Virus record (IMG/VR): IMGVR_UViG_3300034375_001687
Location: 1 to 20,218 of that record
Strand: one strand, 5' to 3'
Source of the DNA: a virus
DNA length: 20,218 bases
This document shows positions 174 through 18,904 of this stretch, piece by piece. How positions within the stretch are numbered: position 1 is the first letter of the stretch; each line of letters opens with the position of its first letter. Under the pieces are notes generated by a model that was given only the letters and a program-made list of their open reading frames with translations, did no database searches and was not told where the DNA came from. Position numbers and translations under genes: made by a program.

Positions 174-200
174 GGCACAATTTCGTCTTTTTGCTATTTA
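174..200 (+). promoter_or_regulatory. Promoter-like 27-bp motif, copy 1
   Basis: GGCACAA (174-180), a 12-nt spacer containing TCTTTTT, then GCTATTTA (193-200). It is 23/27 identical to the copy at 12320 and 17/27 to the one at 18878, with exactly the same spacing. It lies directly after a terminator and 13 nt before the first gene of the structural operon, where a promoter is expected. The core TCTTTTTG is one base off the Bacteroidetes -7 box TAnnTTTG. The usual -33 TTG is not at normal spacing, which may mean an unusual or activated promoter. Confidence 0.6.
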
Positions 201-213
201 AATAAAAACAAGC

Positions 214-666
214 ATGGCATCGACCGTAACACCAGCAACCGCAACGGTTCAAATTGTAGAAAGTCTAACACTCGGAGGAGTGGACAGAGGCGGCACTCAT
301 ACGCGCACGATTAACAATATCGCAGAAGCTGACCGTAGAGTTATGACCGTTGACTCGGCTAATGAGATAGACATTATCGAACTGAACACCAACAACGGAC
401 AAGGCAAGTTCGTACGTTCATCTGTTAAGTACATCCGCATCACTAACTTGGATAACACTAACTTCATTCGTGTAAGATTCAAAAAGAGCGGAGGCGCAAC
501 CGCAGATGTAAAGGTTGATGCTGGAGCCACCTTCATGCTATCAACTGGCTCGATGGATGCAGATGCTACACCCGGAGCATTCAGTGCATTTGTGGACATT
601 GACAACATCAGTGCACAAGCTGACACGGCAGACGTAGACATCGAATACGTTGTTTTAGCAGTTTGA
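214..666 (+). CDS. Putative small virion structural protein
   Basis: This 150-residue protein is rich in Thr, Ala, Asp and Val and alternates beta-strand-like segments, for example around residues 70-100. It has no membrane segment, signal peptide or enzymatic motif that I can see. The ATG follows AAAAACAAGC, the same A-rich start context used by several other first genes in this window. It is the first gene after the terminator and promoter-like motif, and its TGA overlaps the TTG start of the next gene. It sits two genes before the portal, so a capsid decoration, connector or tail role is possible, but I do not recognise the family. Confidence 0.7.
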   Translation: MASTVTPATATVQIVESLTLGGVDRGGTHTRTINNIAEADRRVMTVDSANEIDIIELNTNNGQGKFVRSSVKYIRITNLDNTNFIRVRFKKSGGATADVKVDAGATFMLSTGSMDADATPGAFSAFVDIDNISAQADTADVDIEYVVLAV

Positions 667-1049
667 TCAACATCGAACGAAATAGCGCAAACGAGATAGC
701 TTTGACCCTGACTGAAAAGGGAACGGCTGCTTACTACCTGTTCAAGTTCCAAAGCGACAACACGGAGGCGGTGGAGTACTGCATTGCTACGGATTCAAGT
801 AGCTACCCTGAGCGGTTTAATAAGTTCACCATCACAGAACAGACAAGCCCGGACAATCTGAACGCGGAGGTAGAACTTCCAACAGAGGGACAATGGCGGT
901 ACTTCGTTTACGCTAACTCTTCAGCTACCAATTTAGACCCGACTGGATTGACCGAACTCGAAAGCGGTATTGTGAAAGTAACGGGAACAACAACACCAGT
1001 AACCACCTACTCAGGCGGCAACTCAAACTATGTAGTGTATGGCTCTTAA
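663..1049 (+). CDS. Putative small virion structural protein
   Basis: This 128-residue protein is inferred to start at TTG 663 in a TTGA overlap with the previous stop. That mirrors the ATGA couplings elsewhere here, so the non-ATG start is plausible. The sequence is beta-rich and ends in a low-complexity Gly/Ser/Asn/Thr tail (about residues 108-128). It overlaps the portal gene by 11 nt, implying coupled translation. Proteins of this layout (an N-terminal compact beta domain with a flexible Gly/Ser tail) are common among Bacteroidetes phage structural genes. The exact role is unknown. Confidence 0.65.
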   Translation: MINIERNSANEIALTLTEKGTAAYYLFKFQSDNTEAVEYCIATDSSSYPERFNKFTITEQTSPDNLNAEVELPTEGQWRYFVYANSSATNLDPTGLTELESGIVKVTGTTTPVTTYSGGNSNYVVYGS

Positions 1050-2886
1050 AATTCTAAACTTCGGAGCGCATAAAGTACCGACCTTCAAAGAAGCGAGAGG
1101 TAAGGATTGGATTCTGTTCGGAGACGAAGGCGAGTACAAGAACCGTTACCCTGAGTACCTTCTTAATCTGTATCGTAGAAGTGCCAAGCATCACGCTATT
1201 ATCAACTCCAAAAAGGACTACGTTGTTGGTCAGGGCTGGTCAGTAGATGCGGAAAGGTTGGACACGATGGGGCTTGCAAGGCTTCAGCAGTTCATCAACG
1301 AGCCTAACCAATACGAGAGCCTTAACGACATCCTTGAGAAGGTTGCACTTGATTACGAGTTATATAACGGCTTCGCGTTAGAAATCGTTTACAACCAACT
1401 GAACGACAAGATAGCAGCTATTTATCATGCAGACTTTGCACGTTATCGGTCAAATGAGGACGGTACGAAGTACTACTACTCCGAAGATTGGAAGAAACAC
1501 AACCCTGTCGTTGAGGAAATAGACGCTTTCAATTGGAAAGAACCGAGCGGCAAACAGCTACTTTACGTCAAAGGCTACTCACCTGACTGCAAATACTACC
1601 CATTGCCGACCTATTTAGGGTCAACGGGTTACATTGAGCTTGATGTAGAAATAGCAAACTTCCATCTGAACGCTGTCAAAAATAACTTTGTCGGAGGCAC
1701 GATTGTGTCTTTCTACAACGGAGAACCGACCCTTGAAGAACAAGAGGAAATCGAGCGACAGATAAAGGACAAGTTCACGGGCACGGACAACGCAAATTCA
1801 ATCGTTCTGAACTTTGCTGATTCACGAGACAGAGGAGTAGAAATCCAGCAGCTTAATGGTAACGACTTCGACAAGCGTTTTGACATCTTAAATAAGACCG
1901 TTCAAAGGGAAATATACGCTGGACATCAAGTAACTGACCCAGCACTATTTGGTATCAAAGAGGACGGAATCTTCACGAGCAGAAACCAATTGGTAGACAG
2001 CTTTGAGTTATTCCAAAACACCTACGTGAACAACCGACAGCAGTTCATCGAAAGAGTGTTCAATGAGTTGGCAGCATTGCAAGGACTTTCGAACCGTCTG
2101 TTTATTCAAGACACCGAGCCGATATCTATTCAGTTCAGCGAGAACACGGTTGTTAGCGTAATGACGCAAGAGGAAATACGCGAGAAAATCGGACTTCCTA
2201 AACTTGAGCAACCACTAAAAGCTGCAAAGACTTCAAAGGATGAGGACGATGTTCTTATTGAGTACTTCAAGAACTGCGGTTCTACGGATTACGAACCAGT
2301 CGGAAATGGCAAGGCGTTAAACTTTGAATCTGAAACCTCCGCGAGACTTCACGAGGAATTGAACCGAAAGTATTGGTTTGCTGAGATAGACCCACTTGAT
2401 ACGGCTATCCTGAACATCCTAAAGGAGAACCCAGCTACTCCATTCCTTGCAATAGCCGAGCAGCTACAGTTATCCATTGAACGGGTAATGGCTGGGCTTC
2501 AAAGATTGAACGAAGCGAACGCTATCAAGATAGCAATAGACGAGGTGCTTGATTCTACGCAAAGAACTGTTGAGGTAACGAAAGAAGGCGAGCGGTTGCT
2601 TGAAGAAATACCACCAGTCGAAGAAGAGTTCGTTATCCGTTACGTGTATGCAAAAAGACCGGGTGTTGCTGGAGGTGCTATCATTCCAACCACACGAGAG
2701 TTTTGTAGGAAACTGATAGAATTAGTTGAAAAGGAGAATAGAACTTGGGAGTTAACCGAGATTCAGGACATCGGAGTAAGTCAAAATAGAAACGTATGGA
2801 TGCGAGGCGGTGGCTTTTGGGGTAAGTCTTACCATTGCCGACACTACTGGGAGCAGAAACTTATGAGAATTAAGAAGAATGGCTAA
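1039..2886 (+). CDS. Portal protein with C-terminal winged helix and Cys/His-containing tail
   Basis: This 615-residue protein has an N-terminal part (about 1-390) that looks like a PBSX-type phage portal. It has a conserved N-terminal region, a YPLPTYLGSTGYIELD segment near residue 195 and a downstream glutamine/glutamate-rich stem. A portal forms the dodecameric DNA channel at one capsid vertex and works with the terminase at 17694. The extra C-terminal part is unusual. Residues about 453-525 resemble a winged helix-turn-helix (LDTAILNILKENPATP onward, then a recognition-helix-like SIERVMAGLQRLNEANAI). Residues about 530-615 form a separate module with TTREFC, RGGGFWG and CRHYW. The last module resembles C-terminal domains I have seen in Bacteroidetes phage head proteins, possibly MuF-related. 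The portal call is fairly firm; the roles of the extensions are inference. Confidence 0.8.
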   Translation: MALKILNFGAHKVPTFKEARGKDWILFGDEGEYKNRYPEYLLNLYRRSAKHHAIINSKKDYVVGQGWSVDAERLDTMGLARLQQFINEPNQYESLNDILEKVALDYELYNGFALEIVYNQLNDKIAAIYHADFARYRSNEDGTKYYYSEDWKKHNPVVEEIDAFNWKEPSGKQLLYVKGYSPDCKYYPLPTYLGSTGYIELDVEIANFHLNAVKNNFVGGTIVSFYNGEPTLEEQEEIERQIKDKFTGTDNANSIVLNFADSRDRGVEIQQLNGNDFDKRFDILNKTVQREIYAGHQVTDPALFGIKEDGIFTSRNQLVDSFELFQNTYVNNRQQFIERVFNELAALQGLSNRLFIQDTEPISIQFSENTVVSVMTQEEIREKIGLPKLEQPLKAAKTSKDEDDVLIEYFKNCGSTDYEPVGNGKALNFESETSARLHEELNRKYWFAEIDPLDTAILNILKENPATPFLAIAEQLQLSIERVMAGLQRLNEANAIKIAIDEVLDSTQRTVEVTKEGERLLEEIPPVEEEFVIRYVYAKRPGVAGGAIIPTTREFCRKLIELVEKENRTWELTEIQDIGVSQNRNVWMRGGGFWGKSYHCRHYWEQKLMRIKKNG

Positions 2887-3439
2887 CGTACTATTCATAT
2901 CAGAGACGTTTCTCAAGGACAACACGCTCCTTCACGAGAATATCGACTTCAAATATCTGCGACCTGTGGTATTGATGTGTCAGGACATTCACATCCAGCA
3001 CAAGATTGGCACTACATTATACAACGAACTCAAGACACAGATAACGAACTCCACGTTAACGGCTGCTAATCTTACACTTTTGGAGGATTACATTCAGCCG
3101 TCTTTGTTGTATTGGGTTCAGGCAGAAGCACCGACAGCGATAAGCTACAAGTTCCTAAACAAAGGGTTACACCAGCAGAGTTCTGAGAACAGCTCCAACG
3201 CTTCACTTGATGAAATCAACTTCATCTCAAAGAGGTACAAGGACAAAGCGGAATGGTACACCGAGAGGCTGGTTACTTTCCTTTTAGAGAACGAATCGGA
3301 TTACCCAGCTTACGCTAACCCTGACGATGGTCTTGATACAATCCAGCCCGATACACGAACCTATACAACAGGAATGTTTCTCGGACGTAGACCGAAGTTT
3401 ATTTCATTGGAGGAAAAATATGAGTACAAACGCAAGTAG
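2879..3439 (+). CDS. Putative head-tail connector/adaptor protein
   Basis: This 186-residue, mostly helical protein overlaps the portal gene by 8 nt. It begins with a FISETFLKDNTLLHENID segment and has a conserved-looking middle (KIGTTLYNELK, then SLLYWVQAEAPTAISYKFLNKGL). The order portal, then a short helical protein, then another short protein (3466) is the usual connector position in tailed phages. It resembles the small portal-adjacent proteins common in Bacteroides and Flavobacterium phages (DUF6712-like), though I cannot confirm this without a profile search. The function is inferred from position and composition. Confidence 0.65.
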   Translation: MANVLFISETFLKDNTLLHENIDFKYLRPVVLMCQDIHIQHKIGTTLYNELKTQITNSTLTAANLTLLEDYIQPSLLYWVQAEAPTAISYKFLNKGLHQQSSENSSNASLDEINFISKRYKDKAEWYTERLVTFLLENESDYPAYANPDDGLDTIQPDTRTYTTGMFLGRRPKFISLEEKYEYKRK

Positions 3440-3465
3440 ACGAAATCAAGAGAAGCTAAAGAAGT

Positions 3466-3894
3466 ATGTACACGCTCAACGAAATACTAACCCTAATCGA
3501 AACTCAGGCGAACGCGCACCTTCAGGTGAGGCAGTACGGTCAGGGGGACGTTTGGGAGATAAACCCAAAGGAGCTTGATTATTTAGTTCTGTGGGCTATC
3601 GAGGAGAGCGTTGTTCTAAATGAAAGGACATTGACCTACAACATCCGACTGTTGGCAATGGACAGGGTTCTTCCGGGCGAAGAGAACGAACAGGAAGTAA
3701 TGAGCGACACCATCCAAGTTCTACTGGACTTCGTGGCTTACTTTCGGCAATTGCATACTACGGATTTGTCAATCCAGACGAGCGTAACGCTTGAGCCATT
3801 TACCGAGCGATTTGATGACAAAGTAAGCGGACATTCTTGCGTACTTTCAATTACACAACCATACGACTACAACAAGTGTCAAATACCAAACTAA
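3466..3894 (+). CDS. Putative head-tail joining / tail completion protein
   Basis: This 142-residue protein opens with MYTLNEILTLIETQ, has GDVWEINPKELDYLVLWAIEES early on, and contains NEQEVMSDTIQVLLDFV near residue 80. That pattern is familiar from Bacteroidetes phage proteins encoded just after the portal and first connector. The C-terminal half (LEPFTERFDDKVSGHSCVLSIT) looks beta-rich, as in tail completion proteins. It starts 26 nt after the previous stop. A longer overlapping frame from 3420 was considered and is discussed among rejected items. The role is inferred from order and pattern only. Confidence 0.6.
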   Translation: MYTLNEILTLIETQANAHLQVRQYGQGDVWEINPKELDYLVLWAIEESVVLNERTLTYNIRLLAMDRVLPGEENEQEVMSDTIQVLLDFVAYFRQLHTTDLSIQTSVTLEPFTERFDDKVSGHSCVLSITQPYDYNKCQIPN

Positions 3895-3895
3895 A

Positions 3896-4162
3896 ATGAC
3901 TGAATCACAGAAACTAATCGGAACACGCGGCTGCAAACTCCTAACAGGAACGGGAGCGTTGACGAGTTTAAAAGGCTACGCAATAATAGCACAAGAAGAT
4001 ACCGTCTTTACTACCTTTGAAGTTGATGGCGTTGATGCCCTTGCAGACTTCGGCTTAACGGGCGCAACGGTAAAAGCTGGGGCTTACATCGTAGTACCTT
4101 CAGGAGATGCCATCACAGCCATCACCATGTCAAGCGGAAGCGTTATAATCTACAACCAATAA
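3896..4162 (+). CDS. Small putative structural protein
   Basis: This 88-residue protein starts one base after the preceding stop (TAAAATG). It is rich in Gly, Ala, Thr and Val, with alternating hydrophobic residues that suggest a compact beta sandwich. It has only two tryptic clusters of charge and no membrane segment. Its position between the head-tail joining gene and the fibre/adhesin gene fits a small virion component such as a decoration or fibre-attachment protein. I do not recognise a named family. Confidence 0.6.
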   Translation: MTESQKLIGTRGCKLLTGTGALTSLKGYAIIAQEDTVFTTFEVDGVDALADFGLTGATVKAGAYIVVPSGDAITAITMSSGSVIIYNQ

Positions 4163-4165
4163 GCT

Positions 4166-5143
4166 ATGCCAGCAATAGGAAACGGCATAGGATTACCATT
4201 TTTGAAAGGTGGAGGAGGTGCACCTTCACCTAACCCTGACTTCGTTTCAGTTTGGGACACAACGAAAGCAGGAAGTGCAAGTGATACTGTTGTTCTACCA
4301 TTACTTTCGTACGGAACATATAGTGGAACGGTAGACTGGGGAGATGGTACTACATCTCCATTTGATTATGCCAACAGAACCCATGTTTATGCAAGTAGTG
4401 GAATCTACACCATCACAATTAGTGATTACAGCAATAACAATATAGGTGCTTGGAGATTTCAGAACGGTGGTGATAAGTTAAAAATAATTGAAATAACGAA
4501 CTGGGGACTGTTTGATTTTGCATTCACATCATTCAATTATCAAGCATTCAGAGGATGTAAAAATCTCAACATTACAGCAACTGATATTCCTGTTATTTCG
4601 GGATTATCATTGGACGGGTGTTTTAATGATTGCGATGCATTCAATAACGTAAGTTTTTCAGGTTGGGATGTTTCAAATATTGCAAACTTCAGTGATATTT
4701 TTTACGGAAATGGAGGAACATACAGTGGGTTAGATACGTGGGATGTTAGCAGTGCAACAAATTTCTTTCGCGCATTCTTTGGGGCTTCTGTCTATGATGA
4801 TATAAGTGGATGGGATGTGAGCAATGTAACTAATATGTCACAAATGTTTTTTGGAAATGGAGCTTTGAACTGTGATCTTGCTTCATGGAACATAGTGAAT
4901 GTTTCAAATTTTGCAAACTTTATGATTTACAAGAGTGTGTGGTCAACAGTAAATTATGATGCTACATTAATTGGATGGGAGGCTACATTACAAGCTGCAT
5001 ATCCAAGCGGTGTAGGCTATCCGCACACGATAAACATACATTTCGGTGGAAGTCAATACACGGCAGGAGGAGCAGCAGATGCAGCAAGGACATCACTAAT
5101 TTCAAATTTTGGTTGGACAATAACAGACGGAGGATCAGTATAA
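4166..5143 (+). CDS. Putative tail fibre/adhesin: PKD-like domain plus BspA-type (DUF285) repeats
   Basis: This 325-residue protein has a Gly/Pro-rich start, then a PKD-like beta sandwich at about residues 28-95 with VDWGDGTTS and HVYASSGIYTITI. After that come four repeats headed by Trp at 167, 192, 216 and 241 (WDVSN, WDVSS, WDVSNVTNMSQMF, WNIVN), spaced 24-25 residues apart. This is the hallmark of the BspA-like/DUF285 surface-protein repeat. Such repeats are known from bacterial surface proteins that bind host factors or other surfaces. In a phage structural operon just before lysis genes, a receptor-binding or fibre role is the natural inference. Its DNA is more AT-rich (hand counts near 37-38% GC) than neighbours (about 47%), which suggests recent acquisition. 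Confidence 0.7.
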   Translation: MPAIGNGIGLPFLKGGGGAPSPNPDFVSVWDTTKAGSASDTVVLPLLSYGTYSGTVDWGDGTTSPFDYANRTHVYASSGIYTITISDYSNNNIGAWRFQNGGDKLKIIEITNWGLFDFAFTSFNYQAFRGCKNLNITATDIPVISGLSLDGCFNDCDAFNNVSFSGWDVSNIANFSDIFYGNGGTYSGLDTWDVSSATNFFRAFFGASVYDDISGWDVSNVTNMSQMFFGNGALNCDLASWNIVNVSNFANFMIYKSVWSTVNYDATLIGWEATLQAAYPSGVGYPHTINIHFGGSQYTAGGAADAARTSLISNFGWTITDGGSV

Positions 5144-5144
5144 G

Positions 5145-5363
5145 ATGAACAGCATAATAAATCCCACAGTTAGAACGTATTGGATCACTTTTGATGGTGA
5201 CGATAAAACATCTGTATTAAGTTACGGATGGACAGACCCGAATCAACGAACTGATACAATTCACGTTTGGGAAACTACAACGGACGAGGAAGTTTGGATT
5301 GCAAGATTGCTTGAATACGGCATCGTTCCTGAAATCGATGAACAAGGAAACTTAGTGTTATAA
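5145..5363 (+). CDS. Small hypothetical protein downstream of the fibre gene
   Basis: This 72-residue acidic protein starts one base after the fibre gene stop, and its TAA overlaps the ATG of the holin-like gene (TAATG). It contains the segment YWITFDGDDKTSVLSYGWTD and ends EIDEQGNLVL. There is no membrane segment or recognisable motif. Because it is bracketed by the fibre and holin genes, a small fibre accessory or chaperone is conceivable, but there is no direct evidence. Confidence 0.55.
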   Translation: MNSIINPTVRTYWITFDGDDKTSVLSYGWTDPNQRTDTIHVWETTTDEEVWIARLLEYGIVPEIDEQGNLVL

Positions 5364-5590
5364 TGAACGCAATTTTAGAATCACTTGCTAACTACGGCAT
5401 TGCTGGAATCTTTCTTGCTGTGTTAGTTTACTATCTGAACAAGCTGACCGACATTCACCGTGAGGAAAGGAAAGAATGGCAAGAAGCTAACAACCAGCAC
5501 GTTGACAAGTTCAGCGATGTGATTGCCGAGAACACTAAAGCGTTGACTGAAATGCGCTCAGAACTAAAAGAAAATCGTTGCAAAATGTAA
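5363..5590 (+). CDS. Holin-like protein (single membrane span plus coiled coil)
   Basis: This 75-residue protein has one hydrophobic segment at about residues 9-25 (YGIAGIFLAVLVYYL). A long charged, coiled-coil-like C-terminal part follows (REERKEWQEANNQHVDKF). This topology matches the BhlA/UviB group of small holin-like proteins, which permeabilise the inner membrane and let the endolysin reach the cell wall. It is placed directly before the endolysin gene, which strongly supports the call. It shares one base with the previous stop. Confidence 0.75.
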   Translation: MNAILESLANYGIAGIFLAVLVYYLNKLTDIHREERKEWQEANNQHVDKFSDVIAENTKALTEMRSELKENRCKM

Positions 5591-5592
5591 AG

Positions 5593-5610
5593 TGGTGCAA
5601 TATCGCACCA
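5593..5610 (+). promoter_or_regulatory. Hairpin between holin and endolysin genes
   Basis: TGGTGC (5593-5598) and GCACCA (5605-5610) form a perfect 6-bp stem around a 6-nt loop. It lies in the 39-nt gap between the holin-like stop and the endolysin ATG. There is no T run, so it is not a classical terminator. It could stabilise mRNA or tune endolysin translation. That is inference from position. Confidence 0.35.
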
Positions 5611-5629
5611 AGAGAATGTAACTGCAAAG

Positions 5630-6681: not shown

Positions 6682-6887
6682 ACTACTACTATTATCAAGA
6701 TGCTGAAGTTCGTGAGCAGATAGACGAACTCCTCCAGCAGAATGCCACAATCCAAGCTAACTTAGGAACAGAATCCACAGCCGAAGAGCGAGAAGAAGCC
6801 AAACGGAAATGGATGGAACTGGCTAAACAGATTCGGGAAATCGACCCGAAGTTTTACCGAGAACGAATAATGGCACAACACAGATGA
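6678..6887 (+). CDS. Small charged helical protein
   Basis: This 69-residue protein overlaps the previous and next genes by 4 nt each (ATGA). After a MNYYYYQDAEV start it is almost entirely charged helix with coiled-coil character (REQIDELLQQN, EEREEAKRKWMELAKQ). There are no motifs. Tight coupling to the metallophosphoesterase gene suggests a shared function or simply co-translation. The family is not recognised. Confidence 0.6.
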   Translation: MNYYYYQDAEVREQIDELLQQNATIQANLGTESTAEEREEAKRKWMELAKQIREIDPKFYRERIMAQHR

Positions 6888-8091: not shown

Positions 8092-8130
8092 GTTCAAACC
8101 AAAAATAATTTCACTTTTTTGCCCTAACTA

Positions 8131-8163
8131 TTGTGATTATTCAAAACAATTGTTTTATATTTG
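8131..8163 (+). promoter_or_regulatory. Bacteroidetes-type promoter for the recombination operon
   Basis: TTG at 8131-8133 and TATATTTG at 8156-8163, separated by 22 nt, match the Bacteroidetes consensus TTG-N17-23-TAnnTTTG. It lies in the 112-nt gap between genes ending at 8091 and starting at 8204. An upstream TTTTTTGCC and a TATTCAAAA segment are shared with the promoter-like stretch at 10385-10430. Confidence 0.75.
8143..8156. promoter_or_regulatory. Perfect 14-bp palindrome, candidate operator
   Basis: AAAACAATTGTTTT is its own reverse complement and fills the spacer between the -33 and -7 boxes of the promoter at 8131-8163. A bound dimeric repressor would block RNA polymerase there. 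This is inferred from location and symmetry; a small Cro-like HTH protein is encoded at 10966. Confidence 0.45.
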
Positions 8164-8203
8164 AGCCATCATTAACGGGGTAACCCACTAAAAACAGAAC
8201 AAA

Positions 8204-8335
8204 ATGACAACTCAAGAACAAGTAGAAAAGCTATTCATTCAGATGGTTAAGGCAGAAATGGCAATAAGCGGAAACGACTGGAATCAAAGCAAGGTTGTAG
8301 TTAAAGAATGGATGAAGCAGAAAGGCTTAATGTAA
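8204..8335 (+). CDS. Small hypothetical protein, first gene of the early operon
   Basis: A 43-residue frame begins MTTQEQVEKLFIQMVKA and ends KEWMKQKGLM. Its ATG is preceded by AAAAACAGAAC plus three A, the same start context as the next two genes, and lies about 40 nt after a promoter -7 box. The amphipathic helical composition fits a tiny early phage protein. The short length leaves some doubt, but the start context argues that it is translated. No family is recognised. Confidence 0.6.
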   Translation: MTTQEQVEKLFIQMVKAEMAISGNDWNQSKVVVKEWMKQKGLM

Positions 8336-8340
8336 AACTA

Positions 8341-8382
8341 AACGGGGTAACGGGTAATGCCGACCCCACAAAAAACAGAACC
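8341..8382 (+). promoter_or_regulatory. Leader hairpin plus AAAAACAGAAC start element
   Basis: GGGGT (8344-8348) pairs with ACCCC (8363-8367), with an inner CGG/CCG pairing. AAAAAACAGAAC and one base then lead to the ATG at 8383. The same AACGGGGT start and AAAAACAGAAC end precede the ATG at 8204 (8174-8203). AAAAAACAGAAC alone precedes the ATG at 8667 (8654-8665). The repetition marks it as a designed translation-start element rather than spacer. Confidence 0.5.
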
Positions 8383-11540: not shown

Positions 11541-11845
11541 GTTACTACAACACGAACAACGAAATCGGGACAGAGTTAAAGAAGTCCCAAGAGAAAGCCA
11601 AAAGTCAGGACGAACTTGTTCTACTTTATTTCAGAAACCATGACCAGCTCGGAGTAACACCTGAGCGAGTTCTTCGGCACTTTCAGATAATGGAGCCGTT
11701 ATCTTCTGACAAGTGGGCAAAGACACCTATTACTTCAATCAGAAGGTCGTTCAGCAACCTACACAAGAAAGGATTGATAGAGAAGACCGGTTACAAGATA
11801 GAAGGCGATTTTGGAAAACAGATAAACGTTTGGAGATGCAAGTAA
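11537..11845 (+). CDS. Winged-helix DNA-binding protein
   Basis: This 102-residue protein starts at ATG 11537 (ATGA overlap), not at the upstream GTG. Residues about 25-85 resemble a MarR-like wing (LGVTPERVLRHF, ITSIRRSFSNLHKKGLIEKTGY), with the Gly-Leu-Ile wing entry typical of such folds. It is the second consecutive winged-helix gene and is followed by the DnaA domain IV protein, suggesting a replication-initiation role for the cluster. Confidence 0.6.
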   Translation: MSYYNTNNEIGTELKKSQEKAKSQDELVLLYFRNHDQLGVTPERVLRHFQIMEPLSSDKWAKTPITSIRRSFSNLHKKGLIEKTGYKIEGDFGKQINVWRCK

Positions 11846-12270
11846 GATTGAACGACAAAATTAAGAAGGAGTTGATTGACATCTTAGAACTCCATAAAGG
11901 TTACTTCGGAGCGGATATAGATTATCTGATTGAAATTATCAACGGTGTGAAATCTTTGAAGTACATCTCGAAAGAAAGCAAGGACATCATCGATATGGTT
12001 GAGAAGGCTTCGGGTATTTCTTACTCAGAACTGAAGAGCAGCAACCGTGAAAGGAACGTAGTCACTGCTCGGCAGTATGCCTTTTGGCGGCTATACCAAC
12101 ACACCTACTCGTTAGGTTATTCGCTTGCTCAGATTGGCAAGATGCTGAACCGTGACCATTCAACGGTTATCTACTCCATAAGGAGGATCGACGAGGGTCT
12201 GTCTGTTAAGGACTTTTTAGTAACTGAAATCCATAAACGCTATGAGCAACTGGAAGCTAAGAGTGCTTGA
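11836..12270 (+). CDS. Orphan DnaA domain IV (origin-recognition HTH) protein
   Basis: This 144-residue protein starts at ATG 11836, 10 nt inside the previous gene. Residues about 60-125 match the DnaA C-terminal domain: NRERNVVTARQYAFWRL, SLAQIGKMLNRDHSTVIYSI, with the signature RDHST at 106-110. In DnaA this domain binds DnaA boxes through a HTH. The AAA+ ATPase and domain III are absent; the N-terminal 60 residues are helical and unfamiliar. It could bind the phage origin or compete for host DnaA boxes. It ends the HTH cluster just before the promoter and helicase operon. Confidence 0.8.
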   Translation: MQVRLNDKIKKELIDILELHKGYFGADIDYLIEIINGVKSLKYISKESKDIIDMVEKASGISYSELKSSNRERNVVTARQYAFWRLYQHTYSLGYSLAQIGKMLNRDHSTVIYSIRRIDEGLSVKDFLVTEIHKRYEQLEAKSA

Positions 12271-12319
12271 TTTTGTTATGTGGACACTCGGATATGAGCG
12301 AGAAAAATGACTTCCAAGT

Positions 12320-12346
12320 GGCACAATTTTGTATATTTGCTACTTA
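12320..12346 (+). promoter_or_regulatory. Promoter-like 27-bp motif, copy 2
   Basis: GGCACAA (12320-12326), 12 nt, GCTACTTA (12339-12346). It contains a perfect -7 box TATATTTG at 12332-12339. It is 23/27 identical to copy 1 and in register. It lies 49 nt after the DnaA-domain gene and 139 nt before the ATG at 12486, so any transcript would carry a long leader. Confidence 0.65.
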
Positions 12347-12404
12347 CTAATGAACGCCTGACAAGCGTTTGATAATGGCAAGGAATGATAAACACACCAA
12401 ACAC

Positions 12405-12480
12405 AGGAGGAAGTAACAGAGGTCGCAGCTACCTTGTCGGCTCACTTTGTTTCGGGCTGTCAACCCGACCTCCTTTCTTT
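12405..12480 (+). promoter_or_regulatory. Structured leader with competing hairpins before the helicase operon
   Basis: Several mutually exclusive pairings can be seen: GAGGTCG (12419-12425) with CGACCTC (12466-12472); CGGG (12453-12456) with CCCG (12464-12467) followed by a T-rich CTTTCTTTTT; GTCGG (12436-12440) with CCGAC (12465-12469); and a perfect AGGAGG (12405-12410) that can pair with CCTCCT (12469-12474). This resembles an attenuator or a regulated start region. A 13-codon frame (12375-12416) precedes it. Confidence 0.45.
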
Positions 12481-12485
12481 TTATT

Positions 12486-13085
12486 ATGGCTAAAGACAAG
12501 AAATCATTTGTAGCTTATTGCGACTGGTTAGAATCGTTTGAGGAACTAACTGATGAGGAAGCGGGCAGACTTGCCAAGCATCTATTCAGGTACGTTAATG
12601 ACCTGAACCCTGAAGCACCTGACAAGATAACCAAGATGTGCTTCATTCCAATCAAGCAGAGTTTGAAACGCGACCTTGTGAAATATGAGGAACGAGCGGA
12701 AAGGGCGAGAGAGAATGGGGCAAAAGGTGGACGACCTAAAACCCAAAAAACCCAGTCGGTTATTTCAGAACCCAAAAAACCTGATAGTGTTAATGTAAGT
12801 GTTAATGATAATGATATATCAATAGGTAGAGATTTTGATACTTTCTTTGAATCCTACGGTAAGCAAGTTGACAAGATACCTTGCCAAAGGGAATGGCTGA
12901 ACATCGAACGAGAAGAACACGCTAAGATATTACAGCACGTTCCAAAGTATGTAAATTCAACGCCTGTTGTAAAGTTCAGAAAGAAGCCATTGAACTACCT
13001 GAAGGACAGAACTTGGTTAGACCCTGAACTTCCAAACCACAACAAAGAACCGAAGGTTGAACGCTACAAACCCAATTTGATATGA
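12486..13085 (+). CDS. DUF6291-like replication protein, possible helicase loader
   Basis: This 199-residue protein could start upstream at TTG 12447, but that lies inside the hairpin region, so ATG 12486 is chosen. The N-terminal ~75 residues (FVAYCDWLESFEELTDEEAGRLAKHLFRYV, then KMCFIPIKQSLKRDLVKYEE) fit the DUF6291 pattern seen in phage replication regions. A disordered, Gln/Lys/Asn-rich linker follows. The C-terminal part ends with YLKDRTWLDPELP. It overlaps dnaB by 4 nt. A helicase-loading or primosomal role is inferred from this pairing, not shown. Confidence 0.65.
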   Translation: MAKDKKSFVAYCDWLESFEELTDEEAGRLAKHLFRYVNDLNPEAPDKITKMCFIPIKQSLKRDLVKYEERAERARENGAKGGRPKTQKTQSVISEPKKPDSVNVSVNDNDISIGRDFDTFFESYGKQVDKIPCQREWLNIEREEHAKILQHVPKYVNSTPVVKFRKKPLNYLKDRTWLDPELPNHNKEPKVERYKPNLI

Positions 13086-14404
13086 GTATTGAGAAACAAG
13101 TACTTGGGAGTCTGATTGCAAACCCTGATAAGTTTGTGGAGGTCAGCGAGATAATTAACGAGAACTCATTCATTGACGAGGACGTTAGGAACATCTTCAC
13201 GGTATTCAAAAAGCTATACGAATCTGGGAGCAAGATCAGCCTTGTGATACTTCAGCAACGGGTTAACCAAACAGACCTACCTTGCAACATCACCGACCTG
13301 ATTGACTACATGGATTCAGGCTCTGCACTTTATGAGCATTGCCAGCTATTAAAAGAACACGAGGTAAAACGTGAGCAGTCTAATTTAGGAATGTCTTTGG
13401 TTACTCGTGCTGGAGATATAACGCAAGACCCGTTTGAAACAAACGACTACCTGATGAACGAGGCGGAGCGCATTGTCTCAATGGTTGACTTTGGAAAGAC
13501 ACAGACCAACATGGAACTGATAAAGGCAGTTACCAAGAAGATGGAACTGGCAAGCCAAACGAGCGGAATAACCGGGTTAAAAACAGGATTTAAAGACCTT
13601 GATAGGGTTTACGGTGGTAGACAAAATTCAGACCTGATAATAAAAGCGGCACGTCCAGCTATGGGTAAAACAGCTCAGGCACTATGCGAAGCAATGAACA
13701 TGGCTTTCGAGGACAACAAGAAGGTCATCTTCTTTAGTTTGGAGATGAGCTCGGAGCAATTGATGCAGAGACTTGTCAGCATCCATACAGGCATACCGTT
13801 GAGCAAAATAAGAAGCGGAAGGTTAGACCCTGACCAATGGCATAGATACAACGAGGAGGTCAATTACCTGATAAATGATAACTTGATAATTGTTGACGAT
13901 GTCTACACGCTGAACGGAATTAGAACGCGTTGCAAAAAGCTGAAGATGAAAGGTAAGCTTGATGCTATTTACATCGACTACCTACAATTGATAAACCACA
14001 ATGTAGCTGCTGGAAGGTCAAAAGAACAAGAGGTCAGCGAAGTATCACGGGCTTTGAAGATGTTGGCAAAAGATTTGAATGTTCCTATCGTTTGCCTTTC
14101 GCAACTTTCACGAGCCGTAGAAACGAGAGGAGGAACTCACAAGCCGCTACTGTCTGACCTCAGAGATTCAGGAGCAATTGAGCAAGATGCCGACATTGTT
14201 GAGTTCATCTACCGACCTGAGTATTATGACAAGGACAATGCCGAACTGTTTGGAGTTGCATACGTAATAATAGCCAAGAATCGAAACGGGGCTTGCGGTG
14301 ATATCGAAATGAGATTCAGGCATGAATGCACAAGATTTGAGAATGTAGGCTACGAACCGCAAAGCATTATGAAACCATCTACTAACTTTGAAGCACCTTT
14401 CTAA
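13082..14404 (+). CDS. dnaB: DnaB-type replicative helicase
   Basis: This 440-residue ring helicase unwinds DNA at the replication fork. An N-terminal domain (about 1-110) is followed by a linker and the RecA-like motor. Walker A is RPAMGKT with Lys196/Thr197, Walker B has Asp299 in IYIDYLQLI, and the conserved VPIVCLSQLSRAVE and LSDLRDSGAIEQDADIVEFIYR segments complete the family signature. The length is close to bacterial DnaB. It is coupled by ATGA to the upstream replication protein and by 1 nt to the HNH gene, so the operon encodes the phage replication core. Confidence 0.95.
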   Translation: MSIEKQVLGSLIANPDKFVEVSEIINENSFIDEDVRNIFTVFKKLYESGSKISLVILQQRVNQTDLPCNITDLIDYMDSGSALYEHCQLLKEHEVKREQSNLGMSLVTRAGDITQDPFETNDYLMNEAERIVSMVDFGKTQTNMELIKAVTKKMELASQTSGITGLKTGFKDLDRVYGGRQNSDLIIKAARPAMGKTAQALCEAMNMAFEDNKKVIFFSLEMSSEQLMQRLVSIHTGIPLSKIRSGRLDPDQWHRYNEEVNYLINDNLIIVDDVYTLNGIRTRCKKLKMKGKLDAIYIDYLQLINHNVAAGRSKEQEVSEVSRALKMLAKDLNVPIVCLSQLSRAVETRGGTHKPLLSDLRDSGAIEQDADIVEFIYRPEYYDKDNAELFGVAYVIIAKNRNGACGDIEMRFRHECTRFENVGYEPQSIMKPSTNFEAPF

Positions 14405-14661
14405 TGGCACGACCAAGACACATCAAGGAAATAATCCAGTCAATGACCGGGAACAAGTATCAATCGTATCTTCAGTCTGATGACTGGCAAAGGAAAAGAA
14501 CGCGAGTGCTTCAGCAACGAGGCGCAAAATGCGAGGTCTGCGGAATCAAGCACAGACTGCAAGTTCATCATATGACCTATGAAAGACTCGGAAATGAGTT
14601 ACTTTCTGACCTAAAAGTTTTATGCTGGGCTTGCCATGAACGAGAGCATGGTTTGCGTTAA
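14404..14661 (+). CDS. HNH endonuclease
   Basis: This 85-residue HNH nuclease has Cys43/Cys46, catalytic-type His55/His56 (VHHMTYERLGNE), Asn64, and CxxCHExxH with Cys74/Cys77/His78 and His82. The Cys pairs form the structural zinc knuckle. Compact free-standing HNH proteins of this kind are common near phage replication or terminase genes and act as nicking or packaging-associated nucleases. It shares one base with dnaB. No homing or intron context is visible. Confidence 0.85.
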   Translation: MARPRHIKEIIQSMTGNKYQSYLQSDDWQRKRTRVLQQRGAKCEVCGIKHRLQVHHMTYERLGNELLSDLKVLCWACHEREHGLR

Positions 14662-14680
14662 ACAAAATTCCTTACATTTA
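14652..14680 (+). promoter_or_regulatory. Promoter for the sigma-like gene
   Basis: TTTG (14652-14655), 17 nt, TACATTTA (14673-14680), one base from the TAnnTTTG consensus. The -33 box lies in the last codons of the HNH gene. The likely start of transcription falls close to the GTG at 14686, so the mRNA may be nearly leaderless. Confidence 0.55.
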
Positions 14681-14685
14681 AGCCC

Positions 14686-15210
14686 GTGAAAGAGCAAGCG
14701 GCAATCGACCTACTCAAAGACGAGGAACTACACGAACTCGCTCAGAAGTTATGCAATTGCCCTGACGACCTTATCCAAGAGGTGGTTCTTCTTTTGCTGG
14801 AGATGCCCGAAGAGAAGTGGCAACAGATAAACGAAGGCGGTTATCTGAGGTTCTACGTGGTTAGAACTATGATGACAATGGCTACCAGTAAACGCTCCAG
14901 CTTCTCAAAACTCTACGACCTCCACAACCACAAGAAGGTAGACCACGAGCGAGAGGACTACGACTGGGAGAAAGAAGACGACATTGCACTTTTGGAAACC
15001 CTGATGGACGAGCTGCATTGGTATGACCGCGAGGTGCTTAAACTGTGGCTTGAAGAAGGTAGCTATCGAAAGGTCGGCAAGAAGGTAGACATACCCTACA
15101 AGTCCATAGGAAACACCGTAAACAAAGCACTTGACCAACTAAGAGACAATTACTATGCTATACATCTTGAGCGCATTATCCGCGAGCGTTGCCGCTTACC
15201 TTTGGATTGA
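14686..15210 (+). CDS. Sigma-70-like (RNA polymerase sigma) protein
   Basis: This 174-residue protein starts at GTG 14686. Residues about 20-80 resemble sigma region 2 (DDLIQEVVLLLLEMPE, LRFYVVRTMMTMATSKRSSF). A highly charged spacer follows (HEREDYDWEKEDD), then region 4 at about 115-160 with a HTH (YREVLKLW-type start, SYRKVGKKVDIPYKSIGNTVNKALDQLR). The two-domain layout matches small phage and ECF-type sigma factors, though a terminase small subunit-like HTH is the usual confounder. It could direct RNA polymerase to phage promoters such as the 27-bp motif family, which is inference. The next gene starts 56 nt inside it. Confidence 0.65.
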   Translation: MKEQAAIDLLKDEELHELAQKLCNCPDDLIQEVVLLLLEMPEEKWQQINEGGYLRFYVVRTMMTMATSKRSSFSKLYDLHNHKKVDHEREDYDWEKEDDIALLETLMDELHWYDREVLKLWLEEGSYRKVGKKVDIPYKSIGNTVNKALDQLRDNYYAIHLERIIRERCRLPLD

Positions 15211-15409
15211 AGTATTCGCGATAGACCTACTTCTGAAAAGCTGGCTACGGCTGCCTGACACTTATCCTTTAAAGCCATTCGACTGTCGGCTTTGTATGTC
15301 GTTTTGGTTAGGCGTTCTGATGTGTTCGGCTCACAGCCCTGAGGCACTTTTATACGTACCTTTGATGAGTGTGTTATTTGAAAGGTTGATGTGGAGGTTC
15401 GAACTATAA
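15155..15409 (+). CDS. Small membrane protein with CxxC
   Basis: This 84-residue protein has hydrophobic segments at about 3-27 and 48-60, and again near the C-terminus (YVPLMSVLF). A KPFDCRLCMSFWLG block carries Cys44 and Cys47. Small proteins with this membrane/CxxC layout are common in Bacteroidetes phages, which supports a real gene despite the 56-nt overlap with the sigma-like gene. Its 3' end overlaps the following gene by 19 nt. The function is unknown. Confidence 0.6.
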   Translation: MLYILSALSASVAAYLWIEVFAIDLLLKSWLRLPDTYPLKPFDCRLCMSFWLGVLMCSAHSPEALLYVPLMSVLFERLMWRFEL

Positions 15410-15765
15410 CTGACTACCTGAAGGAAAACGGGTGGCATGAAATTCTAAGCATGGACAAAAACGAAGTTTTGCTATTTATAGCCGAGAGGCTCGACCAAAT
15501 TACAATGATGGAACAGGGGCGTTACTCGGGACGAATAACACGAGAAGAGCAGAAACTCTATCAAGAAGCGTGGAGTTACATCGACCCGAAAGCGAAGGTC
15601 TGTTTCACTTGTGGGAGAACTCCGCAGTTAATGAGTGTTGCACTTTTAAACTTTTACCAATGCCAGCAAGACAATGCCCTAACGGAAAATGGAGATGGGG
15701 ACAAGGCGACTGCATCTACGAAACCAAAAAGGAAGCGGAGAAGGCGGGGGTCGCAATCGAAATAA
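15391..15765 (+). CDS. Hypothetical protein with CxxC
   Basis: This 124-residue protein starts at GTG 15391 inside the membrane-protein gene. A helical N-terminal part (DYLKENGWHEIL, LLFIAERLDQIT) is followed by Cys71/Cys74 (KVCFTCGRTPQLM), a likely metal-binding knuckle, and a C-terminal low-complexity basic tail (KPKRKRRRRGSQSK). From 15660 on it shares its bases with a second gene in another frame, so the tail may be shaped by that overlap. An in-frame copy of the 27-bp motif lies at 15452-15478. No named family. Confidence 0.55.
   Translation: MEVRTITDYLKENGWHEILSMDKNEVLLFIAERLDQITMMEQGRYSGRITREEQKLYQEAWSYIDPKAKVCFTCGRTPQLMSVALLNFYQCQQDNALTENGDGDKATASTKPKRKRRRRGSQSK
15452..15478 (+). promoter_or_regulatory. 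Motif-like copy 4, inside a coding gene
   Basis: TGGACAA, 12 nt, GCTATTTA (15471-15478), 19/27 identical to copy 1 and in the same spacing. It lies inside the gene at 15391, so it may be chance or an internal promoter for the genes from 15660 onward, including the methyltransferase and terminase. Confidence 0.3.
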
Positions 15766-15791
15766 AACGTAGGTTATATGAAAAGAAGTGA
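15660..15791 (+). CDS. Small protein nested out of frame in the previous gene
   Basis: This 43-residue protein reads MPARQCPNGKWRWGQGDC at its start and ends EKAGVAIEIKRRLYEKK. The CPNGKWRWGxGxCxYxTxxEAEKA pattern is one I associate with small phage proteins, so it is probably real even though 106 nt overlap the 15391 gene in a different frame. Its end overlaps the next gene by 14 nt. The ATG at 15660 is preferred over the earlier frame opening. Confidence 0.55.
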   Translation: MPARQCPNGKWRWGQGDCIYETKKEAEKAGVAIEIKRRLYEKK

Positions 15792-15960
15792 GAACTACGG
15801 GCTCTACATAACCCAAAACACCTACCAAATGAAATGGTACTGCTTCAACCGAGAAGCCGCAACCGCATACTGGAACGGAGAGCCTTGCAAAAAAGCAATT
15901 GGAGACACTCCACAACAAGCACTTTCAAACTACAAGAATGGAAAGTTTACCGATAAGTAA
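15778..15960 (+). CDS. Small hypothetical protein
   Basis: This 60-residue protein contains GLYITQNTYQMKWYCFNREA and ends TPQQALSNYKNGKFTDK, an arrangement common in small phage proteins with a terminal helix. It overlaps the nested gene before it by 14 nt and the methyltransferase gene after it by 23 nt. No family is named. Confidence 0.5.
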   Translation: MKRSENYGLYITQNTYQMKWYCFNREAATAYWNGEPCKKAIGDTPQQALSNYKNGKFTDK

Positions 15961-17095
15961 AGTCAGACCCAACTCGGACAACCCGAGATACATCAAAGAC
16001 GAGAAGTTCAAGAAGCTGGTTCAGTCGCTTCGGGACTTTCCTGAGATGGCTAACGTTAGACCGATAGTTGTAAATACAGAGATGGTTGTATTGGGCGGCA
16101 ATATGCGGCTAAAGGCGATGCAAGAAGCTGGCTGGTCAGAAGTGCCCGTTCAGGTTGTTGATTGGTCAGAAGAAAAACAGCGCGAGTTCATTATTAAGGA
16201 CAACGTAGGATTTGGGGAGTGGGACTGGGACGAGTTGGCGAATACTTGGGATGCTGAAGAACTGAACGAATGGGGGCTTGACACTCCCGACAATTGGAAA
16301 GCAGAAGAACTGGAAGCAGAAGAGGACGATTACGAAGTTCCCGAAGAACTAAAGACAGACGTTGTGCTTGGCGACCTTATCGAGATAGGAGAGCATCGGT
16401 TGCTTTGTGGGGATAGTACTGATAGCGACCAAGTGGCCAAGCTGATGAATGGAGAAAAAGCGGATATGGTGTTTACCGACCCGCCTTATGGAATCAATGA
16501 AAAAGGCGACAGAAGTAAAAGGGGTGGATTGGCGAAGGGAAATAATTTACCCGATTTTATTGACGATAGCATTCAATACGCTATTGATGCTTTTAATCAA
16601 CCACAAAACCTTGATATACCGATTCAAGTTTGGTTTGGAGCAAATTATTATTGTCATTCATTACCACAAGGAAATAATTGGTTAGTATGGGATAAAAGAG
16701 TAGAAGAAAAACAAAGAGATACTCAAAGCGATTGTGAACTTGCGTGGGTAAAATCAAGGTTTAATTCAGTTAGAATATTTAGACATCTTTGGAAGGGAAT
16801 GATGAAAGATAGTGAGAGGGGGCAAAGAAGAGTTCATGCAACCCAAAAGCCTATTGCATTAATTGAATTTGCCTTAAACGAATACGGGTCAAAAGAAGGC
16901 GACTTAGTTATTGATTATTTTACTGGTTCAGGCTCAACAATGGTAGCAGCACACCAACTTAAACGCAAATGCTACGGCATGGAACTTGACCCAAAATACT
17001 GCCAAGTTATCATTGACAGAATGACGAAACTCGACCCGACTTTGAGCGTTAAGATAAACGGAAAGGAGTACGTTAAAACAACGATTGAACAATGA
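15938..17095 (+). CDS. ParB-like domain fused to an N4/N6 DNA methyltransferase
   Basis: This 385-residue protein starts at ATG 15938 (MESLPISKVRPN); an earlier ATG at 15899 would overlap the previous gene further. Residues about 1-90 are a ParB N-terminal-like domain (VRPIVVNTEMVVLGGNMRLKA). An acidic linker leads to the methyltransferase, with DPPY at 181-184 and the SAM-binding FTGSGST at 328-334 (DPPY before FxGxG, the beta-type order). The domain between them, probably target recognition, is encoded by AT-rich DNA. Such phage fusions methylate DNA to avoid restriction or mark packaging DNA. It overlaps the small terminase gene by 4 nt. The recognised sequence cannot be predicted. Confidence 0.88.
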   Translation: MESLPISKVRPNSDNPRYIKDEKFKKLVQSLRDFPEMANVRPIVVNTEMVVLGGNMRLKAMQEAGWSEVPVQVVDWSEEKQREFIIKDNVGFGEWDWDELANTWDAEELNEWGLDTPDNWKAEELEAEEDDYEVPEELKTDVVLGDLIEIGEHRLLCGDSTDSDQVAKLMNGEKADMVFTDPPYGINEKGDRSKRGGLAKGNNLPDFIDDSIQYAIDAFNQPQNLDIPIQVWFGANYYCHSLPQGNNWLVWDKRVEEKQRDTQSDCELAWVKSRFNSVRIFRHLWKGMMKDSERGQRRVHATQKPIALIEFALNEYGSKEGDLVIDYFTGSGSTMVAAHQLKRKCYGMELDPKYCQVIIDRMTKLDPTLSVKINGKEYVKTTIEQ

Positions 17096-17493
17096 ACGAA
17101 GGCGGAACACCTGAGAATCTTAAACCCTTCAAGAAAGGACAGAGCGGCAACCCGAAAGGGCGACCGAAGAACGTGGAAACGCTACTGAAGGAACACTTCC
17201 TTGACGAGCATAACGTCAAGCTGTCGAAGGGTCAGGTTCAGGACATCATAAAGAACGTACTCGGCAAATCCCGAAGCGAGTTGGTGGAGCTGGCAAAGAA
17301 CGACCAGTTACCTTTTTGGATAGCTCTTATTGCGAAGAAAGCCCAACGCGACTACGAGAAGGGAAGCATTCACATTCTCGATGTGTTATTCGATAGGGTC
17401 TACGGCAAGCCAAAAGAGGAGGTTGAGCAGACGGTTAACGGAGGCAAGCCTGACAAGGTGGAGATAGTCATACATCGACCTGAGAAGAAATGA
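17092..17493 (+). CDS. terS: Small terminase-like protein (DUF5681-like)
   Basis: This 133-residue protein has an N-terminal KPFKKGQSGNPKGRPK block, which matches the DUF5681 signature often found beside large terminase genes. A helical middle and a basic end (VEIVIHRPEKK) follow. A small terminase recognises the packaging site and stimulates the large subunit. The gene order (this, a mini-protein, large terminase) fits. The signature is a context marker rather than proof, so the terminase small-subunit role is probable. It is ATGA-coupled upstream and downstream. Confidence 0.65.
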   Translation: MNEGGTPENLKPFKKGQSGNPKGRPKNVETLLKEHFLDEHNVKLSKGQVQDIIKNVLGKSRSELVELAKNDQLPFWIALIAKKAQRDYEKGSIHILDVLFDRVYGKPKEEVEQTVNGGKPDKVEIVIHRPEKK

Positions 17494-17654
17494 CAGAGTG
17501 CCCGGTATGCCATAAAGTAGGCTTCCATAAGATGAGCTGCACAATGCAGAAGGTAACTGTGTTGCTTTCTAAATCGCGTATCGCGAATCGCAAATTGAAG
17601 TACGGAAAAGGTGAAGCACATAAAGTGAAACGAAGTAAAGACGTAGAACCTTAG
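17490..17654 (+). CDS. 54-residue zinc-knuckle-like protein between terminase genes
   Basis: This small frame starts in an ATGA overlap with the small terminase stop and ends at TAG 17652-17654. Its N-terminus has Cys4, Cys7, His8, His13 and Cys17 (CPVCHKVGFHKMSC), a possible metal site. The rest is basic (RKLKYGKGEAHKVKRS), as expected of a nucleic-acid-binding peptide. It is below the usual annotation cut-off. Its tight placement supports reality, but the function is unknown. Confidence 0.5.
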   Translation: MTECPVCHKVGFHKMSCTMQKVTVLLSKSRIANRKLKYGKGEAHKVKRSKDVEP

Positions 17655-17693
17655 ACTGACTAAACCGACCAAAAAGTCAACCTATAATCTGAC

Positions 17694-18878
17694 GTGAAAG
17701 TTGAAGGAACTGGCGTATTTGATGACCTGTGGCAAGCCCTTAATGATAAATCCGTTCGGGGAATTGTGCTTGAGGGTGGAAGCCGCTCATCCAAAACGTG
17801 GAGCATCTGCCAAGCCATCTACCTTACAGGATTACAAGAACCAAAGAGGATCGCAATTGCGAGGTTCAGGCGCACGTGGATTAAGCCGACCGTACTCGAC
17901 ACGTTCAAGAAGGTATTACAAAGCCTTGAGGTATGGGAGGATGAGGCGTTTAACAAGACTGATCTGATCTACTCAGCTCACGGGTCTACATTTGAGTTCT
18001 ACGGGCTTGACGATAGTCAGAAGTTACACGGTATCGAAACGGACTACTTTTGGTTGAATGAAGCCATAGAAACCAGCAAGGACGACTTCGACCAATTAGA
18101 GCAGCGTTGCAAAGGCAAGTGGATTCTCGACTACAATCCTTCCACAGATGAGCACTGGATTTACGACAACGTACTGAAACGGGACGATGTGGTGCTTATC
18201 CATTCCACGATGCTGGACAACACCTTCCTCGACCAGCACATCCGCGACAAGATAAACAGCTACGAACCAACGCCTGAGAACATAGCACGAGGCACGGCAG
18301 ACGAGTACAAGTGGAAGGTCTACGGATTAGGGCAACGGTCAAGAAGAGAAGGCGCGATATACGAGAACTGGCAAGAAACCAAAGAGTTTCCTTCCGGGTA
18401 TAAGTGGAAAGCCTACGGTTTAGACTTCGGGTTTACGAATGACCCGACCGCATTGGTGGAGGTAATATACCAAGATGGCAAACTGTGGGTTAAGGAGGTG
18501 CTTTACGAAACAGGACTGACCAACGCAGACATAGCGAGGAAATGCGGGCTTCAGCGAAGTGATGAAATCATAGCCGACTCAGCAGAGCCAAAGAGCATTG
18601 AGGAAATAAGACGGGCTGGCTTCAGAATCAGACCAGTTGCCAAAGGTCAGGACTCGGTAAGGTCAGGCATCGACAAGCTCAAATCTGTACAGATTATGGT
18701 ACATCAAGATTCGGTCAACATCATTCGGGAGCTCAGGAACTACGCATGGAAGAGGGACTACAAAACAAACCAAGTAACCAACCAACCCGAAGACGATAAC
18801 AACCACGCTCTCGATGCTCTGAGATATGTAGCAATGGAGAAGCTGAAGGCAAACGCTGGGAAGTACACTATTCGTTAG
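17694..18878 (+). CDS. terL: Large terminase subunit (TerL)
   Basis: This 394-residue packaging motor has an ATPase and a nuclease. Walker A GGSRSSKT is at 28-35 (the Arg-containing variant seen in PBSX-like terminases). The Walker B-type YFWLNEA ends at Glu123. The nuclease triad is visible as Asp244 (GLDFGFTNDP), Asp295 (IIADSAEP) and Asp374 (NNHALDALRY). The start is GTG 17694. The length is slightly short of the typical 400-550. It lies after the small terminase and before a promoter-like motif that leads to the tail assembly genes. Confidence 0.95.
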   Translation: MKVEGTGVFDDLWQALNDKSVRGIVLEGGSRSSKTWSICQAIYLTGLQEPKRIAIARFRRTWIKPTVLDTFKKVLQSLEVWEDEAFNKTDLIYSAHGSTFEFYGLDDSQKLHGIETDYFWLNEAIETSKDDFDQLEQRCKGKWILDYNPSTDEHWIYDNVLKRDDVVLIHSTMLDNTFLDQHIRDKINSYEPTPENIARGTADEYKWKVYGLGQRSRREGAIYENWQETKEFPSGYKWKAYGLDFGFTNDPTALVEVIYQDGKLWVKEVLYETGLTNADIARKCGLQRSDEIIADSAEPKSIEEIRRAGFRIRPVAKGQDSVRSGIDKLKSVQIMVHQDSVNIIRELRNYAWKRDYKTNQVTNQPEDDNNHALDALRYVAMEKLKANAGKYTIR

Positions 18879-18904
18879 ACACAAAATTACAGATTCGCTA
18901 TTTA
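18878..18904 (+). promoter_or_regulatory. Promoter-like 27-bp motif, copy 3
   Basis: GACACAA (18878-18884), 12 nt, GCTATTTA (18897-18904), with the same spacing as copies 1 and 2; 17/27 identical to copy 1. It begins at the terL stop and ends 8 nt before the ATG at 18913. The -7-like core CAGATTCG departs from TAnnTTTG, so an additional factor may be needed. Confidence 0.5.

Follow-up and report, generated by a model that had tools for sequence, protein, structure and literature searches.

A predicted bipartite promoter motif and its putative phage-encoded sigma factor in a family of aquatic phages

The locus and its four motif copies

The window, by which we mean the whole stretch of viral DNA analysed here, is a contig of 20,218 bases that carries almost all of its genes on the plus strand. 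Structural and lysis genes are followed by an early recombination/replication block, a DUF6291 gene and a DnaB-like helicase gene (13082–14404, +; TIGR00665, E 5e-112), and these in turn by a small HNH gene, an ECF-like sigma factor gene (14686–15210, +, GTG start), a ParB-like/N6_N4 methyltransferase gene (15899–17095, +), the gene of the terminase large subunit (17694–18878, +) and further virion genes. The methyltransferase gene product consists of a ParB-like N-terminal domain fused to an N6_N4 DNA methyltransferase, an arrangement that is common among phages, and a protein with a DnaA C-terminal DNA-binding domain is encoded at 11713–12270 (E 1.7e-18). No Rfam match was found in the whole window, and Megablast found no match to named phages. 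The relatives that carry the motif described below come from marine and other aquatic metagenomes (>100 metagenomic contigs), and because of the TAnnTTTG elements found in these phages and the likeness to the Nonlabens phage P12024S (NC_018271), the host group of the family is probably Bacteroidota.

According to the original prediction, three copies of a motif, RCACAA-N12-GCTAYTTA, lie in front of operons. The pattern is indeed present in exact form at 175–200, 12321–12346 and 18879–18904, each time on the plus strand, and occurs in the window neither on the minus strand nor read backwards; the identities given for the copies, 23/27 (copies 1 and 2) and 17/27 (copies 1 and 3), are correct by direct count. 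Since the pattern was derived from these same three sites, independent tests weigh more. An unbiased dyad count over the upstream regions of the window itself ranks CACAA-N12-GCTATT first, though at only two starts. A position-weight search recovers the three known copies (scores 36.6–39.4) and reveals that their list was incomplete, as a fourth copy at 15453 scores 37.3; besides these four sites nothing in the window reaches 9 with a 35-column weight matrix built from the sites of relatives, the maximum over 15 shuffles being 10.8. A scan of the window for sigma70-type promoters gave no clear excess (35 versus 29 in shuffles).

We refer to copies 1, 2 and 3 as sites A, B and C and to the fourth copy as site D. 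Site A (174–200, +) comprises a -33 element GGCACAA (174–180) and an extended -10 element TTTGCTATTTA (190–200), with a predicted start at A207, and it precedes the structural operon, whose first gene (214–666, +) lies directly 3' of it and which includes a portal-like gene at 1039 that matches the portal of P12024S. Immediately upstream, at the end of the preceding operon, stands a terminator-like hairpin (138–169, +; 14-bp stem, -23 kcal/mol, z -5.8, T-rich 3' arm), and site A is conserved in relatives whose spacers have diverged. Site B (12320–12346, +) lies just downstream of the gene for the DnaA-C-like protein and upstream of the helicase gene, with its extended -10 element at 12336–12346 and a predicted start at A12353. 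Site C (18878–18904, +), directly behind the terminase gene, combines ACACAA with the extended -10 element TTCGCTATTTA (18894–18904) and a predicted start at A18911, and is followed by a gene with its ATG at 18913. Site D (15453–15478, +), with one mismatch, overlaps the ATG at 15451 and hence lies inside a coding sequence upstream of the methyltransferase and terminase genes; its predicted start is A15485, and internal ATGs follow at 15505 and 15508. The leaders counted from the predicted starts would measure 2 nt at C, 7 nt at A, 20–23 nt at D (to the internal ATGs) and about 133 nt at B.

Copy 3 had been thought to depart from the others at the core. This does not hold, as the core is TTTGCTATTTA and not TATATTTG; the view of copy 3 as a degenerate copy was rejected, its differences falling nearly all within the unconserved spacer.

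Conservation and anatomy of the motif in related phages

In relatives obtained through terminase, helicase and portal searches, we found 591 sites with at most two mismatches, of which 125 are non-redundant at 80% identity and 93 of those have at most one mismatch. They fall into six site families and occupy no fewer than six homologous positions. A to D lie in the window, whereas E and F, which precede ATGGCAACAC and ATGAACATTTC, respectively, belong to a portion of the genome beyond it, and neither of the latter was used to define the pattern. The phages of this family carry four to seven near-identical start signals before replication and structural genes, essentially always on the gene strand. 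Across 18 relatives (312 kb), 59 sites (36 exact, 23 with one mismatch) are present, all 59 on the gene strand, where 0.5 would be expected on both strands together. Every one of them has an ATG-started reading frame within 150 nt of the predicted start, and for 80% of the sites, compared to 13% of random positions, a reading frame begins within 20 nt. Two matches within genes (L141:5369 and L016:6518, with zero to one mismatches) look like chance or coding matches and were not counted as promoters.

These numbers bear on the simplest explanation, namely that the copies are alike by chance or by simple shared descent, or that a pattern was fitted to three sites, from which it was, after all, initially taken. 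With 59 sites against 0.5 expected, six unrelated gene contexts that share the motif despite diverged spacers and flanks, and Leu-Leu-Phe codons that are frozen at site D in 61 orthologues, this explanation is already refuted and its probability is close to nil.

The logo of the sites yields the consensus WG-RCACAA-N9-TTTGCTATTTA, in which the two conserved parts are separated by nine weakly conserved bases and an A is conserved seven bases after TATTTA. Counting the first base of RCACAA as 0, base 32 is an A in 84 of the 93 non-redundant sites. If this A is taken as +1, TATTTA occupies -12 to -7, TGC becomes an extended -10 and GGCACAA lies at about -33 to -27. The predicted start is hence 7 nt after the motif, inside the range of 5–8 nt that had been anticipated, and the geometry, at which we arrived without assuming it, would be that of an ordinary sigma70-family promoter. 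As judged from the sequence, the motif is a predicted bipartite promoter that joins a -33 element to an extended -10, with a purine at the start. Two features count against reading it as the promoter of an ECF sigma factor, namely that TATTTA is atypical as a -10 element of ECF sigma factors and that the predicted leader at C has only 2 nt.

One could alternatively imagine that a DNA-binding regulator of the phage, be it an activator or a repressor, uses the motif as its operator, with a separate, unrecognised promoter nearby. The phage does encode small HTH-like proteins besides the DnaA-C-like protein, and dimers can bind bipartite sites. The two halves of the motif, however, differ in sequence and form neither inverted nor direct repeats, and a strict gene-strand orientation together with a conserved A at a start-like distance argues for a promoter rather than an operator. 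As the motif can stand as little as 2 nt before a start codon, a second promoter downstream of it would have no room, and no other conserved element is present in the 60-nt flanks of the sites. We hence regard an operator as very improbable compared to the promoter reading.

The strict 18-base form of the motif was found in 104 viral stretches, compared to five occurrences across the 257 Gb of 84,980 bacterial and archaeal genomes, where about seven would be expected by chance (an estimate from the base count alone that assumes uniform composition). The strict form is hence at chance level in these genomes, unlike the sites of a host regulon. The original idea of a phage-specific promoter class is hence supported by the direction of the sites, their fixed-register elements, the extended -10, the conserved A and the nearby downstream start codons, as well as by the presence of the motif before operons in more than 100 related contigs and its near absence from bacterial genomes.

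In some distant clades (L066, L061, L062, L145, L149 and L197), TTTGCTATTTA is replaced by TTTCTATTTA or TCTATTTA at several sites, and ATACAA instead of ACACAA occurs at site C in distant clades. It is possible that these changes reflect a drift of sigma specificity.

The phage sigma factor as putative reader of the motif

The product of the gene at 14686–15210 matches the sigma70-ECF family TIGR02937 with an E-value of 2e-8 over residues 15–154, as do 19/20 orthologues, although the 34 bits remain below the curated NCBIfam cut-off of 42.9; Pfam matches are weak, and the protein matches PHROG sigma families. An AlphaFold2 model from 33 sequences (pLDDT 88) has sigma factors as its top PDB matches, with a Foldseek probability of 1.00 for SigL of M. 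tuberculosis, and its region 4 superimposes on sigmaE region 4 bound to -35 DNA (2h27_D) over 68 residues (rmsd 1.9 Å, Z 9.5). The predicted model hence contains both domains of the sigma fold, region 2 and the helix-turn-helix of region 4. Over the whole chain, rmsd and E-values are poor, which is expected for two flexibly placed domains. Searches with the sigma factor gave no match to named phages by tblastn and, in bacterial genomes, 202 pattern hits with none confirmed.

Among the 34 records searched, ten have a close sigma factor, and each of these carries between two and six motifs, all on the same strand; two records with a distant sigma factor (27% identical) carry no motifs, and five helicase-related records (70–77%) have neither the sigma gene nor the motif. 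Conversely, sigma orthologues are present in all ten of the long records that span the locus and carry the motif. Motif phages retain the recognition helix IP[FY]KSIGN even at sigma identities as low as 54%, whereas the two motif-less phages have INHQTCYR, and no recurrent dyad was found in L077, a record with a distant sigma factor. Because the sample consists of related phages, mostly as fragmentary contigs, the co-occurrence supports rather than proves a link between sigma factor and motif. Very probably, the sigma factor encoded at 14686–15210 reads the motif via the host RNA polymerase.

The same evidence weighs on the possibility that a sigma factor of the host, be it the housekeeping sigmaABfr, sigma54 or a host ECF factor, uses the motif as its promoter, and that the phage sigma has other targets. 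Such a reading could draw on the resemblance of TGGCAC to the -24 element of sigma54 and on a host-type TAnnTTTG -7 element within site B. Yet TAnnTTTG is confined to B and missing from all 93 other sites, the strict form of the motif is at chance level in the bacterial and archaeal genomes, and relatives without a close sigma factor lack the motif, all of which makes a host reader improbable. A sigma54 promoter in particular was rejected, since the spacing from GG to GC is 17 in the aligned sites, as compared to 10 for sigma54.

Sites B and D and a proposed transcription programme

TAnnTTTG is the -7 element of housekeeping promoters in Bacteroidota, which are recognised by sigmaABfr (PMC6847099). 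It is present in 12/12 non-redundant B sites with its two n positions variable, although B sites are mutually related and do not represent 12 independent events, and in 0/93 sites of families A, C, D, E and F. The TATATTTG in copy 2 (12332–12339, +) is hence explained by a -7 element of host type that overlaps with the phage motif at this site. The canonical -33 TTG had been noted as absent from copy 2 at normal spacing, and it is indeed missing at the B site of the window; the -33 element is weak in F. johnsoniae also (PMC6847099). The consistent presence of TAnnTTTG suggests that site B is a hybrid promoter that would start sigma synthesis and then amplify it. Given the position of B ahead of the sigma gene, a hand-over from host to phage with positive feedback would be the natural reading.

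The transcript predicted for B would begin with a 5' hairpin, AACGC..GCGUU (12353–12369, +), which is kept in 16 relatives with two different loops and which, since it starts exactly at the predicted +1, provides independent support for that +1. This claim is limited to the 5' hairpin, as the fold of the whole B leader has no extra stability over shuffles (z -0.74). The leader further contains a short conserved reading frame (12385–12513 in the window; also downstream of B in L018, L029 and L065), which in one clade encodes 32 aa (MKKLLYGVKTNGRLL..GRGAVNANPFLLL) and has a stop that overlaps the next start as ATGA, suggesting a leader peptide. A hairpin with a T-rich run at 12440–12486, just before the ATG at 12486, has counterparts of different sequence at the same place in relatives and is possibly an attenuator or the end of a small RNA.

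A second, conserved TATATTTG at 8156–8163 (+) forms a host-type -7 element of a putative early promoter that precedes the gene at 8204. The module around it (8115–8200 in the window) comprises a palindrome on its upstream side (in L007, GTTTTGAATATTCAAAAC) and a ACGGGGTAACCC leader, and some relatives carry a related copy elsewhere (L007:560, L032:605 and 3528). This possibly points to an operator of early genes.

At site D, codons 7–9 of the reading frame are TTG, CTA and TTT in 93–100% of the orthologues that have the same residue (61 distinct orthologues, to about 45% identity), whereas other Leu codons nearby agree in only 44–67%. In clades without site D (L061, L062, L073 and L268), the protein pattern is kept and the codons are not. 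The frozen codons reflect selection on the DNA within a reading frame. Methionine 20 (15508–15510) follows the predicted start by about 23 nt and is shared by 55/61 orthologues; a shortened product from the internal methionine is possible.

From the motif with its conservation, direction, position and start-like conserved base, and from the sigma gene and its co-occurrence with the motif, we infer a programme of binding, timing and feedback. The early genes (about 8.2–12.3 kb) would rely on the RNA polymerase and housekeeping sigma of the host, starting from the host-type promoter at 8156, and site B, with its host -7 element and phage motif, would extend early transcription to the replication genes and to the sigma gene (14686). 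Once made, the phage sigma would redirect the host core polymerase to the bipartite motif, with region 4 reading WG-RCACAA at about -33, region 2 reading TTTGCTATTTA at -17 to -7 and synthesis beginning at the conserved A. As such, it would reinforce B in a positive feedback and switch on D (methyltransferase, terminase) as well as C, E, F and A (structural operons). That the motif is the promoter of the phage-encoded ECF-like sigma, with an early host-sigma start, a hand-over at B and later activation of A to F, appears highly probable to us.

Similar strategies have been described for gp36 of phiEco32 and gp47 of phage 7-11, sigma factors that redirect the host polymerase to the phages' own middle and late promoters (PMC8948821, PMC4281155). 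SaPh711_gp47 of the Salmonella phage 7-11 uses bipartite late promoters, GTAAtg-16-aCTA, with starts 6–9 bp away (PMC8948821), and by analogy the present system may work alike: both have a phage sigma with region 4, bipartite promoters upstream of late genes and, as proposed here, a host core polymerase and early genes on host sigma promoters. It differs in its elements (RCACAA and TTTGCTATTTA), in phage lineage and host group, in being known from sequence alone, and in that one promoter overlaps a host -7 element and one sits inside a gene. phiEco32 shares the ECF-like phage sigma and the recurrence of promoters before middle and late operons, but its promoters consist of a single element, tAATGTAtA, and its sigma factor has no recognisable region 4, whereas both elements and region 4 are present here; for some phiEco32-related promoters, service to host and phage sigma alike has been proposed (PMC8948821, PMC4281155). 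The sigmaABfr promoter (TTTG / TAnnTTTG, PMC6847099) resembles site B and the putative early promoter at 8156 in its -7 element, in contrast to the other 93 phage sites, which have the core TTTGCTATTTA and the upstream RCACAA instead. Compared to these working precedents, the new traits would be another host group, promoters of different sequence, the putative hybrid at B and a promoter within a gene. The searched literature, with partial coverage, contained no description of the motif, and in the literature found there was no phage-encoded sigma with mapped promoters for Bacteroidota phages.

P12024S has a similar gene order, with a sigma-like gene shortly before the terminase; the encoded protein, gp33, has a sigma-70 region 2. 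It differs from the window in that its sigma factor is very distant and that it carries another dyad, AAACAAA-N14-CGTTAATA, at a fixed distance from the ATG. In this isolated Flavobacteriaceae phage (L326), the dyad lies 34 nt before at least five gene starts (2997, 5378, 23927, 25167 and 26768) and is probably a promoter class of its own. Whether three further proposals all hold is, in our estimation, an even bet, namely that (i) B is a two-sigma hybrid in which host TAnnTTTG and phage motif share TTTG, so that control passes from host to phage and the sigma gene comes under positive feedback; (ii) D is an in-frame promoter for a shortened protein that begins at the conserved ATG inside the gene; and (iii) in the L077 type and P12024S sigma region 4 and promoter changed together, as a natural series of orthogonal pairs.

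Overall, promoters have been mapped for few phage-encoded sigma factors, and Bacteroidota have housekeeping promoters that are themselves unusual. The present analysis offers a testable transcription programme for this phage family, with a base-exact prediction of starts and a candidate reader protein. Related phages seem to have changed both sigma factor and promoter, and the family may hence yield an orthogonal pair of promoter and sigma factor for Bacteroidota.
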